From Niveispirillum irakense DSM 11586 (lineage in GTDB: Bacteria > Pseudomonadota > Alphaproteobacteria > Azospirillales > Azospirillaceae), in NCBI RefSeq assembly GCF_000429645.1, contig NZ_AUCG01000020.1, forward strand, positions 1 to 64,000: a DNA stretch of 64,000 nucleotides. Reading direction: 5' to 3'. Positions 23,537-27,363 of the stretch are shown piece after piece. The position numbers and the translations under genes were made by a program. The notes beneath the pieces are model-generated. The model was not told where the DNA came from. It saw only the letters and a program-made list of their open reading frames with translations, and made no database searches. Positions within the stretch are counted from its first letter, which is position 1. Every line of letters begins with the position of its first letter.

Positions 23537-23823
23537 ATGCCTATTGCACAATATGAGATTTTTCCAGCGGCGCGATGGAAAAAGCGTATCGTTGGCGCAT
23601 CCGCAACATACGAAGCAATGCTGACGCGAGCGTATGCTCGCGGTTTCAATAAAATCAGTCTTTAAGGTCAAAACTTGGTTCTGCTGCAATGCAACATGGC
23701 GGCAATCTTTAACGATACCAATATGTGATATGTAATTTTGCAATGTGAAAAACGCTTGCACCTTTCGGGCAAGCCGGTCACATTCCGTTTCAGAAGAAAG
23801 AATAAACGCAGAAGGGGAAGGTC

Positions 23824-23937
23824 ATGCCTGCAGGGTTCGCCCAGATGGCAGAGAGAAAGACGGCCATGGTTTCCGCCCTGGCTGATCATCCGGTTTATTG
23901 TCGTATCGGCCGAACGGGAGCCTACCAGAACCGGTAG
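23824..23937 (+). CDS. Possible 37-residue small protein, uncertain
   Basis: An ATG follows the purine-rich AGAAGGGGAAGG, a good ribosome site. The frame reads 37 codons to TAG, starting MPAGFAQMAERKTAMV and ending GAYQNR, with one cysteine and no membrane segment. I do not recognise it. It ends about 30 bases before the predicted small-RNA start, so it could be a leader peptide or chance. Low confidence. Confidence 0.25.
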   Translation: MPAGFAQMAERKTAMVSALADHPVYCRIGRTGAYQNR

Positions 23938-23964: not shown

Positions 23965-24170
23965 GCGCCCTTTCGCTTCACGACATCAATGAATTTCGGC
24001 ACTGAAGAAGTACGGCCATAGTCCGTTTCCCCTTCGTGCTGAAATTATGGGCCTACGTCACCCATTAACCGACTACATCATATGTCGTCGGAGACGTAAT
24101 TTTTCTTCTTTGACTTCCTCCTTACTGAAGCCCGCTGTGAACCTCATCCGTCACGCGGGCTTTTCTTTTT
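23965..24170 (+). ncRNA. Candidate trans-acting small RNA with anti-Shine-Dalgarno stretch
   Basis: Three well-formed hairpins follow one another. Hairpin 1 (23992-24046) has an 11-bp stem, a bulged T and a further GAAG/CTTC helix. Hairpin 2 (outer TACGTC/GACGTA at 24054-24098) holds an inner CCGAC/GTCGG and ACAT/ATGT stem. Hairpin 3 (24129-24161, AGCCCGC/GCGGGCT with inner GTGA/TCAC) ends in TTTTCTTTTT, a textbook terminator. Between hairpins 2 and 3 is single-stranded TTTCTTCTTTGACTTCC then TCCTTAC, complementary to Shine-Dalgarno sites. A -10-like TATACT at 23953-23958 sets the start near 23965; no good -35 is seen. The layout resembles alphaproteobacterial anti-SD sRNAs, but I cannot match a named family. 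Confidence 0.6.
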
Positions 24171-24234
24171 GCAATTTTGCAACACTAACCCAGAAGAGTC
24201 AGTTTTTGTTGTCTGTCCCAAAATATGTCATTGA

Positions 24235-24262
24235 TTGCCACATTGTGGATGATCAATATGAT
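24235..24262 (+). promoter_or_regulatory. Sigma-70 promoter of the TonB receptor with overlapping palindrome
   Basis: TTGCCA (24235-24240), a 16-base spacer and TATGAT (24257-24262) each match consensus at five of six positions; the start is expected near 24269. The palindrome CCACATTGTGG (24238-24248) overlaps the -35 end and spacer, a good place for a repressor. Confidence 0.7.
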
Positions 24263-24417: not shown

Positions 24418-27363
24418 ATGTCGTACCGGAACGGTCGCGCTGTGCGGCCCGGGAAGCTGTTGTCGTGCGCCGCTGTCGGCCTGGCGCTGGCAAGCATGGG
24501 GGGAACTGCCTGGGGGCAAGCAGCCACCCAGGTTGCACAGGCCGAAGAGGCGCTCGAAGAAATCATCGTTGTTGGCACCCGCGCCAGCTTGCAGTCCGCT
24601 ATCGACCGCAAGAAGAATGCCTCCACGGTCGTGGACAGCATTGTTGCCGAAGACGTTGCCTCCTTCCCCGACAAGAACGTGGGTGAAGCGCTGCAGCGTA
24701 TCACCGGCGTTCAGCTCAGCCGTGCTTTCGGCGAAGGTGAGTCCGTCTCCATCCGTGGCGTCGAGCCCGACCTGAACCGCGTTGAAATCAATGGCGTTTC
24801 CGTTCTGGGTGGCGCCGGCACCGGTGGTCGTGGCGCCGATCTGCGCGACATGGCCTCGGAACTGATCAAGTCCATCGACGTGTTCAAGGGCTTCACCGCC
24901 GACATGACCGAAGGTGGCGTTGGTGGCACGGTGTCGATCCAGACCCGCCGTCCGCTGGAACTGAAGAGCACCCTGTTCTCCGTGTCCGCTGCCGGCCAGT
25001 ATCTGGACCTGCAGAAGGATGTGACGCCCCGCGCCAACGTGACATATGGCGACAAGTTCATGGATGACCGCCTGGGCGTCCTGGTGAACGTCACCTATGA
25101 CAAGGTCCAGACCCGCGGCGACTTCCTGCGCAATACGGAATGGGTGGCGCTGGCTGATTTCGACAATTCGCCGAACAAGACCCGCACTGTTGAGGGTTAT
25201 GAGAGCTACGCGACCAAGGCATCGTGCAGCACCATCACCAACTCCGCCAACCGTACGAGCTGCCAGTCGCAGTGGAATGACCTGTCGCCACGTATTCCGC
25301 GTTACGGCATGTGGTATCGCGACGATAAGCGCGTCACCGCCATGGGTACGCTGCAATATCAGGTGACCGATAACCTCGATGTCTATGTCGACGTCAATTA
25401 TAACCAGCGCGACCAGTTCCTCACCGACTATAACTACTCCATCGACCTGACCTCGGCCGCTCGTATGAGCCTGCTGAATGCAGTGGTTGATGAGAATCAT
25501 AACGTCATCGAACTGACCACGGCGGCCACCGCCCCGACCTCCACCACCGGTGCCGGCAATATTTTCGGCTCCCAGATGCGTGGCTTCGATTACGAGCTGA
25601 AGTCCCATTATTACACGGGTGGCTTCAACTGGAATGGCGACCGCCTGAAGATCAACGGTTTCTATTCAACGTCTGAATCGACGATGAACAGCGACAGCAA
25701 TTCAGTGTCGATCAGCGCCACGGTCCCCAGCATCCGGATCGCCCTTTCCGACAAGGGTATTCCGTCCTTCACCTTCCCGACGAACTTCGACCCCGCCAAC
25801 CCCGAGACCTATCGTAACGGTGGCGCGGGCATCCAGTACCGTCCGGAAGAGGTGGAAGTCACCGAAGATGCCGCGAAGCTGGATGTCGACTATGATCTCG
25901 ACCGCTGGGGCCTGACGGTTCTGGAAGCCGGTGGTCAGTGGCGCAAGACCGGTTCTCTGCGTTATGCGGGTGGTGGTTACACCGCGCTGGACGGCACCGT
26001 CGTCCCGTCCGCCAACGTCACCAGCAATGTGGCCCTGGGCACCACGACCAGTGGCCTGACCTGGTCGCCGCAGCGTCTGGTGGACTTCGTCCGCGCTGCT
26101 GCCAGCCTGACCCCGCAGAATTTCTACAAGGGTTATGGCGGCAATATCGGTAATGTGCCGCGCGGCTGGATGGCCCCGGACGTCAATGTGATTGGCGACT
26201 GGTTTGATACGTCGGGCTTCAATCACAATCTGATCCGCGAAGCCAATGGCTATGCGCAGATCCCGGCCCATGACATCAGCGAGGAAGTCAGCGCCGGCTA
26301 CCTCAAGGCCAATTTCGCCTTTGATGTTGGTGATATCCCGGTGTCCGGTAACTTCGGTGTCCGTTACGTTCAGACCGACGTGACCGCGACCGGCGCCCTG
26401 ACCCGCCGCGAACGGGTTGTTGTTGGCCAGACCAACACCGGCCAGCCGATCACGGAAATCCAGACGCGCGGCGTAACCTCGGTCTCGATCAACGAGAAAT
26501 ATTCCGACACGCTGCCGGCCTTCAACATCAGCTTCGGCCTGGTGCCGGATGAAGTCATCGTTCGCCTGGGTTATGCCAAGGTGATGGCCCGTCCGAAGCC
26601 GACCGATCTGGTGCCGTCCGCCAACTGCCTGTATGACCTGACCGGTGCCAACGAGGCGGAAAACCTGCTGGACACCTGCTCCTCGGGCAACCCGGATCTG
26701 GATCCCTATCGTGCCGACCAGTATGACCTGAATGTCGGCTGGTACATGAATGCCGACACCCTGTTGAGCGCTTCCTACTTCTATAAGGACGTGAAGAGCT
26801 TCATCCTGGCCCGTACCCTGGTCCGGAATGTGGATCTGTTCAACGATGGTGACCGCTTCGACGTGACCATGCCGATCAACGGCACCGGTGCACAGCTTGA
26901 CGGTATCGAATTGTCGGCGCAGACCGCTTTCACCTTCCTGCCCTCGCCGTTTGACGGTCTGGGCGCCAGCGTCAACTACACCTACTCCCGCGCCAAGGAT
27001 GTGGGTCTGGTCAACTCGCTGGACGGTTCGGACCTGCCGTTCCCCGGTCTGTCCAAGCACAGCTACAACCTGATCGCCTATTACGACAAGGATGAGTACA
27101 ACGTCCGCGTCGCTTACAATGGCCGCAGCAAGTGGCTGCAAGCTGCCGCTGAACGGTCGGGCAACCCGGTCTTCCGCGACGGCACCGGCTACCTGGATGC
27201 CAAGGCCACCTACCGCGTGCCGAATTCGGGCCTGTCCTTCTTCGTGGAAGGCAAGAACCTGACCGGCGAAGCAGAGCGCACCACCTCGGGCGACGATATC
27301 CGCCTGGGCGAACTGGCTTACTCCGGCAAGCGCTACTATGTCGGCGCTTCCTATAAGTACTGA
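24418..27363 (+). CDS. TonB-dependent receptor, oligosaccharide (Caulobacter/Xanthomonas) type
   Basis: Outer-membrane receptor of 981 residues from the ATG at 24418, preceded by GGGAGGGAA. The signal peptide covers about 1-33 (cleavage after AWG). The TonB box region is EEIIVVGTR, then the plug with DKNVGEALQRITGVQLSR, ESVSIRGVEPDLNRVEINGV and GGVGGTVSIQTRRPLEL. The 22-strand barrel ends in ...GKRYYVGASYKY with a terminal aromatic residue. This subfamily typically imports plant oligosaccharides. Lying between the RG-I hydrolase series and PL11, it should take up pectic oligomers. It has its own promoter and structured leader, and two hairpins follow. Confidence 0.92.
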   Translation: MSYRNGRAVRPGKLLSCAAVGLALASMGGTAWGQAATQVAQAEEALEEIIVVGTRASLQSAIDRKKNASTVVDSIVAEDVASFPDKNVGEALQRITGVQLSRAFGEGESVSIRGVEPDLNRVEINGVSVLGGAGTGGRGADLRDMASELIKSIDVFKGFTADMTEGGVGGTVSIQTRRPLELKSTLFSVSAAGQYLDLQKDVTPRANVTYGDKFMDDRLGVLVNVTYDKVQTRGDFLRNTEWVALADFDNSPNKTRTVEGYESYATKASCSTITNSANRTSCQSQWNDLSPRIPRYGMWYRDDKRVTAMGTLQYQVTDNLDVYVDVNYNQRDQFLTDYNYSIDLTSAARMSLLNAVVDENHNVIELTTAATAPTSTTGAGNIFGSQMRGFDYELKSHYYTGGFNWNGDRLKINGFYSTSESTMNSDSNSVSISATVPSIRIALSDKGIPSFTFPTNFDPANPETYRNGGAGIQYRPEEVEVTEDAAKLDVDYDLDRWGLTVLEAGGQWRKTGSLRYAGGGYTALDGTVVPSANVTSNVALGTTTSGLTWSPQRLVDFVRAAASLTPQNFYKGYGGNIGNVPRGWMAPDVNVIGDWFDTSGFNHNLIREANGYAQIPAHDISEEVSAGYLKANFAFDVGDIPVSGNFGVRYVQTDVTATGALTRRERVVVGQTNTGQPITEIQTRGVTSVSINEKYSDTLPAFNISFGLVPDEVIVRLGYAKVMARPKPTDLVPSANCLYDLTGANEAENLLDTCSSGNPDLDPYRADQYDLNVGWYMNADTLLSASYFYKDVKSFILARTLVRNVDLFNDGDRFDVTMPINGTGAQLDGIELSAQTAFTFLPSPFDGLGASVNYTYSRAKDVGLVNSLDGSDLPFPGLSKHSYNLIAYYDKDEYNVRVAYNGRSKWLQAAAERSGNPVFRDGTGYLDAKATYRVPNSGLSFFVEGKNLTGEAERTTSGDDIRLGELAYSGKRYYVGASYKY

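Follow-up and report, generated by a model that had tools for sequence, protein, structure and literature searches.

The alphaR8 small RNAs, among them MmgR of Sinorhizobium meliloti and SisA-D of Caulobacter crescentus, are described in the available extracts of the source as a weak hairpin followed by the single-stranded UUUCCUCCCU and then a Rho-independent terminator, and as present in all Alphaproteobacteria but the Rickettsiales (PMC12559287). In the same extracts SisA represses a TonB-receptor mRNA and CrfA of Caulobacter acts as a sponge of alphaR8 RNAs (PMC12559287). AbcR1/2 (alpha-r15) and NfeR1 (alpha-r14) are likewise alphaproteobacterial and, according to the excerpts at hand, act through exposed anti-Shine-Dalgarno (anti-SD) motifs on mRNAs for transport and metabolism (PMC8844928, PMC10746234). 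A literature search returned nothing that joined Niveispirillum with a small RNA. The one paper that mentioned pectin and TonB-dependent uptake together with an sRNA and polysaccharide utilization loci was, judged by its listing, on alginate, and the three that mentioned small RNA, rhamnogalacturonan and TonB-dependent uptake were on other topics, judged by title.

We analyzed a 64-kb stretch of the Niveispirillum irakense genome (hereafter the window) that contains a rhamnogalacturonan-type pectin locus. The divergent genes for L-rhamnose mutarotase (rhaM, Pfam PF05336; 23012..23332, − strand) and for a TonB-dependent receptor (Pfam Plug, with orthologs in 8 genomes; 24418..27363, + strand) flank a structured RNA element at 23965..24170 on the + strand. 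With a probability of about 0.6, this element is the body of a free-standing, trans-acting anti-SD sRNA gene, a relative of alphaR8 that has diverged, is bound to this locus and carries additional structure on its 5′ side. The pectin setting beside a TonB receptor, which had been proposed from the sequence, was borne out by the Pfam domains of the window (rhaM, GH88, GH35/GH43, oligogalacturonate lyase, rhamnogalacturonan lyase (RGL11) and the TonB plug).

In the portions of the sources available, the feature common to the alphaR8 RNAs is a single-stranded anti-SD core of ∼10 nt before a terminator (PMC12559287, PMC7143759). Unlike these RNAs, the window element has an extra structured 5′ part and a site in a pectin locus, lacks the weak hairpin before the core and scored weakly. 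The AbcR RNAs are described in the same kind of excerpt with two motifs, one in a loop and one between stem-loops, and NfeR1 with three identical motifs in single-stranded portions of three hairpins, whereas a single motif lies here between a hairpin and the terminator (PMC8844928, PMC10746234). CrfA is tied to TonB receptors and carbon supply; the purine-rich element that it presents to the alphaR8 core resembles only the self-pairing alternative considered below. As far as its available description goes, CrfA differs in being a sponge of alphaR8 RNAs, and it is likened to the locus by description, not by sequence (PMC12559287).

With Rfam 15, the window and 8 syntenic loci gave no family at the gathering cut-off. 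A RybB match (RF00110; 24099-24168) reached 24.2 bits against a gathering cut-off of 40 (E 0.026 in 1.2 kb, 1 in 47 kb) and was taken as chance. A Pxr sRNA match in one relative (L011, 1349-1452, + strand; 41.5 bits against a cut-off of 80, E 6e-4) lay outside the element, on the far side of the receptor gene, and was also taken as chance, like the remaining sub-threshold matches. The alpha-r14/alpha-r15 motifs (CCUCCUCCC three times, or CUCCUCCC with UUCCCCUC) were rejected after inspection by eye, which found one CCTCC in 23965-24170, the longer motifs all being absent.

Fold, parts and conservation of the element

The minimum free energy (MFE) fold of 23965..24170, whose 5′ end is not fixed, had −61.2 kcal/mol compared with −41.7 (sd 3.6) for shuffled sequences (z −5.45; 0/200 shuffles as good). 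It consists of hairpin H1 (23992..24046, + strand), hairpin H2 (24054..24098, + strand), a 3-pair hairpin, a 4-pair closing stem and a Rho-independent terminator (24127..24170, + strand). Between H2 and the terminator, 28 nt (24099-24126) are unpaired. This stretch contains CTTCCTCCTTAC at 24114-24125 and a CU-rich anti-SD core, GACTTCCTCCTTACT (24112..24126, + strand). The mean unpaired probability of 24110-24126 was 0.90 in RNA 23965-24170, 0.82 in 24060-24170 and 0.91 in 24095-24170, and fell to 0.17 when the RNA started at 23791. The structured element with an exposed anti-SD stretch that the original prediction had described was therefore recovered by folding. Its "perfect terminator" was nearly right: the stem (24127-24163) has 13 pairs and a 10-nt loop and runs into a U-rich tail (TTTTCTTTTT at 24161-24170), but it contains one bulged base. 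A simple terminator scan found part of this stem only, and its 3 terminators against 1.7 expected were within chance; CTTCCTCC by itself is not very rare either (5 in 64 kb against 1.9 expected; 3/100 shuffles reach 5). The fold, and the fact that it recurs at this position in 8/8 related genomes, do go beyond chance.

For the comparison, 40 genomes were searched, and 8 (the window's own included) had a receptor match of at least 76% identity over the whole length. The loci compared (L007-L014) are from Niveispirillum-type genomes with an orthologous TonB receptor; Niveispirillum sp. SYP-B3756, Niveispirillum lacus and Azospirillum sp. RU38E were the closest named records, with receptor orthologs at 74-81% identity. 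Hairpins, the CU-rich anti-SD stretch and a terminator were present in 8/8, with the CU stretch 250-318 nt upstream of the receptor start; all 7 relatives have a terminator stem that differs in sequence from that of the window. The fold z-score of 130-nt segments over the element was −3.2 to −8.1 in 8/8 and was the strongest value of the profile in 7/8. The exception was L011, with its strongest fold (z −4.2) at −240 upstream compared with −3.2 at the core. Outside the element z was mostly ∼0, except in L010 and L011 (−240, −180), L009 (−360), L012 (+60) and L007 (+120).

Although anatomy and place were kept in 8/8, the sequence of the element turns over quickly and occurs in three forms: that of the window, that of L010 and L011 (CTTCTCCCTAGACTC), and that of L008, L009, L012, L013 and L014 (group A), in which the hairpin GCAGGTGA/TCACCTTGC is followed by CTTCCCTCCT. 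At the place of H1, L010 and L011 have hairpins of differing sequence. The rhaM genes were 92-93% identical among the window, L010 and L011, 93-97% among the five group A loci and 76-79% between these sets, and judged by this identity and by the block-to-core spacing given below, the window, L010 and L011 belong to one lineage. The receptor orthologs, 73-98% identical among the 8 genomes, split unlike rhaM and the element forms. The window receptor was 81% identical to those of L008, L009 and L010 and 76% to that of L011, and the window rhaM 92% to those of L010 and L011 and 77-78% to the rest. Across L007-L014 this disagreement between receptor and rhaM suggests recombination at the locus.

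Within group A (n = 5), invariant columns made up 60-85% of the alignment from the last hairpin through the core to the terminator, 40-65% of H1 and 5-30% of the 120 nt preceding H1. The figures were 35-55% for the operator/promoter block farther upstream and, some lower blocks apart, 60-75% for most of the TonB promoter and leader; the TonB promoter region (blocks of 65-75%) was thus conserved as highly as the element. Conservation of the paired positions, the test that the original prediction had set, was mildly supported: the helices were kept, but covariation was sparse. Of 40 pairs, 3 had changed on both sides in the five relatives, a number reached by 64/500 shuffles, and the observed count of cells with both sides changed was reached by 15/500.

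No open reading frame explained the structures, as had been predicted. ORFs of at least 15 aa with a Shine-Dalgarno (SD) sequence were found once each in L009, L011 and the window; they were mutually unlike and none was common to the relatives. The one in the window encodes 37 aa behind a good SD (23824-23937), lies just upstream of 23965 and downstream of the putative transcript start, and is not conserved.

Searches with the element itself remained close to the locus. At the DNA level it matched itself alone, both in 59 genomes and in plasmids. A 20-mer of the window returned itself and 4 three-mismatch matches in 11 genomes of the genus, and a group A 18-mer matched exactly at the five syntenic loci and nowhere else in 59 genomes. 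A covariance model of the five group A loci (R1) gave its own members 117-168 bits in 82 genomes of the family and the next best match 31.7 bits; the latter was in G084 (C32:31150-31294, L096), outside the syntenic loci. R1 missed the elements of the window and L011 and had merely a 4.7-bit overlap with that of L010. A model of L010 and L011 (R2), run on the six other loci, scored highest precisely at the window element (15.9 bits, E 0.29); in 11 whole genomes it recovered the two loci from which it was built and, for one of them, the reverse strand as well, and nothing in the window's genome. An alignment of the window, L010 and L011 (A3) was not used for a model because the stem of the window element has a bulge that puts the columns out of register. 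Among 31 of the 32 loci L040-L071 (L064 omitted; ∼800 nt each, upstream of TonB homologs in other Alphaproteobacteria), there were 6 terminator-like structures, none with the CU motif.

Probable relationship to alphaR8

The window core CUUCCUCCUU is identical to the alphaR8 UUUCCUCCCU at 8/10 positions. The core of L010 and L011, CUUCUCCCUAGACUC, has CUCCCUARACUC in common with canonical alphaR8 copies, and that of group A is CUUCCCUCCU. Directly after the core, the window has the Rho-independent terminator that belongs to the alphaR8 description. No weak hairpin immediately precedes the core in the window and L010; in L011 it is partial, and the five group A relatives have a hairpin.

An 18-nt alphaR8 core pattern (at most 2 mismatches) was found in 81/82 Azospirillaceae genomes, with at least 2 matches in 76/82; the highest number was 9 (G105), and the reversed control gave 0 or 1 per genome. 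All 11 genomes of the genus had at least two exact core copies and one ATTCC variant. Near FGase genes (46 places, 30 loci checked), the motif occurred with a terminator in 2/30. Sixty canonical copies were collected and twenty of them aligned to build a covariance model (R3), from which the pectin-locus elements were left out. R3 matched the element of L011 with 29.5 bits (E 5.6e-6 in 47 kb; E 7.2e-4 in genome G001) and that of L010 with 21.2 bits (E 9.4e-4 in 47 kb), so that two counterparts in sister genomes match a model of canonical alphaR8 sRNAs of the MmgR/SisA kind, which is new here. The best of its 8 matches in the 64-kb window was at the element (24098..24172, + strand), but weak (14.9 bits, E 0.064). 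Unrelated places in L013 (15.1 bits) and L009 (14.6 bits) scored comparably, and in group A only L009 had a match at the element (7.4 bits), the other four having none. In whole-genome searches the L011 copy was among the matches listed and the other seven elements were not. Among the matches listed for the window's own genome were 3 canonical copies (89.7, 72.7 and 61.1 bits) and eight non-canonical places at 15.3-20.7 bits, above the 14.9 bits of the window element, whose score is thus without significance at the scale of the whole genome. The canonical copies (C1:368191, C5:280871 and C3:492248) lie near genes for GT20 (trehalose-phosphate synthase type), trehalose-phosphatase and permease.

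The link to alphaR8 is thus good for L011 and fair for L010, and for the window it rests on synteny and lineage. The window element probably works like alphaR8 and is probably derived from it, but its membership is unproven and it is best called alphaR8-like, not alphaR8 itself.

Putative promoters, operator-like sites and predicted targets

A conserved promoter-like block (23756..23784, + strand) consists of TTGCAC (23756-23761), 17 nt and CACATT (23779-23784), preceded by GTGAAAAACGC, and is likely to be the sRNA's own promoter. The motif [AG]TGAAAA..CTTGC was found in 8/8 genomes, 342-353 nt before the CU core in three and 224-228 nt in five. As the second hexamer CACATT is poor and the block is absent from the sites of a sigma70 scan, the start site of the sRNA is putative. 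That scan gave 2 sites against 1.0 expected, by itself within chance; a sigma70-like promoter of the TonB receptor gene (24235..24262, + strand) lies downstream of the terminator, in surroundings that are conserved in the relatives. Transcription from the 23756 block would end at the terminator, upstream of this separate promoter region.

Three operator-like sites were seen on the + strand: AATATGAGAT on the rhaM side (23550..23559), with CAATATGAGAT kept in 7/7 relatives; AATATGTGAT upstream of the promoter-like block (23720..23729); and AATATGTCAT on the TonB side (24222..24231), the last two not exact in the relatives. The motif AATATGWSAT occurs 3 times in 64 kb (0.09 expected), each time in the rhaM-TonB intergenic region, and was picked after the sites had been seen. 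A wider pattern, CMAATATGNSAT with 1 mismatch, showed no enrichment (5 against 3.07 expected; 17/100 shuffles). In addition, TGYAATTTTGCAA occurs before the promoter-like block (23731-23743) and at the end of the terminator (24170-24182) and is possibly a regulator site.

By the precedent of SisA-D and MmgR, the core exposed just before the terminator would bind mRNAs for transporters and catabolism at their ribosome-binding sites and prevent translation, probably with Hfq. The original prediction had the RNA tune the neighboring carbohydrate genes, rhaM among them, and for this the calculations gave no support. The local core paired with the TonB and rhaM start regions of the 8 genomes within the range of shuffled seeds in 16/16 cases (best case 66/500), and the 12-mer complement was not enriched genome-wide (11 places with at most 1 mismatch, counting the element; the reversed control gave 37). 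An open frame longer than 50 aa begins close to 6 of the 10 places with one mismatch, in 3 of these cases with ATG.

At the TonB start region, the canonical alphaR8 core (17 nt) paired with −15.6 to −23.3 kcal/mol compared with −12.3 to −16.1 kcal/mol for the local core (22 nt), and it was the stronger of the two in 8/8 when the raw energies were compared directly. Its pairing included the 7-pair run UCCUCCC/GGGAGGA in 6/8 genomes, an 8-pair run outside the SD in L009 and a 6-pair run in the window. Because the canonical core pairs better with the TonB start in 8/8, the receptor is a predicted target of the canonical copies, as any GGGAGGA start site would likewise be.

Possible leader pairing and alternative explanations

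Transcription from the conserved upstream block would place a purine-rich leader segment (23808..23826, + strand) on the same RNA as the core, and this leader would hide the window anti-SD. In an RNA starting at ∼23792, the window core was paired to GAAGGGGAAGG (23811-23821) and its unpaired probability was 0.18 compared with 0.97 in the short form. In the two other genomes of this lineage the core was also less free in the long form (0.36 compared with 0.86 in L010, 0.47 compared with 0.69 in L011). Such a transcript may be self-silenced or act as a sponge, its leader binding its own or a canonical alphaR8 core in the manner of Caulobacter CrfA, until processing or another RNA frees the core. 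If so, the net effect could be relief of the alphaR8 repression of the receptor, and the stronger pairing of the canonical core with the TonB start region in 8/8 is in line with a sponge. The best leader site for the 18-nt core lay at +17, +18 and +18 from the putative start in the window, L010 and L011, and 0/1000 base-shuffled triples were as close; the shared ancestry of a purine-rich stretch could equally explain this common position, and within single genomes the complementarity was ordinary (56, 87 and 12 of 300 shuffles reach it). The window core preferred the window leader (−18.2 kcal/mol) over the other two (−11.3 and −10.4), and the swap test favored own pairing in the window and L011 but failed in L010 (own −11.2, window core −11.3). 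The window leader was bound by the L010/L011 core with −11.6 kcal/mol and by the canonical alphaR8 core with −9.8 only, and both values speak against this reading. The effect was missing in the five other relatives: their best leader sites were unremarkable (matched by 91 to 249 of 300 shuffles), and the core was about equally free in both forms, or freer in the long form in L014. As the start site is itself putative and the leader pairing was sought after the fold had been seen, we consider this explanation unlikely. More doubtful still is the wider proposal that the pectin locus has a dedicated alphaR8-derived RNA, with anti-SD core and purine antidote in one self-locked or sponge-like transcript, which would modulate how strongly alphaR8 represses the neighboring TonB receptor and changes fast in sequence between species.

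The strong fold with its terminator could instead be an attenuator, that is, a conditional terminator in a long leader of the receptor mRNA. It is on the receptor's strand, ends ∼250 nt before the receptor start and is kept in 8/8. However, the terminator is separated from the receptor by a promoter-like site and a conserved region, and the CU core, which an attenuator does not need, is also kept; we rate this reading as improbable, much like the wider proposal above. Least probable of all is that a short mRNA simply ends here, or that the element insulates the divergent genes from each other, in either case with an incidental CU-rich stretch. The 37-aa frame with its good SD would fit a short mRNA, but it is not common to the relatives, and against both versions, conservation in the five relatives is far higher in the core and hairpins than in the preceding 120 nt, and two sister loci score as alphaR8. 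The reading as a free-standing anti-SD sRNA gene is therefore preferred.

If this reading is true, the pectin locus of N. irakense would have an anti-SD sRNA inside a polysaccharide-utilization locus of an alphaproteobacterium, adjoining a receptor of the type repressed by an alphaR8 RNA in Caulobacter. In such an sRNA, anatomy and place would be retained while sequence and seed evolve rapidly, in a family, the Azospirillaceae, in which the alphaR8 core pattern turns out to be common.
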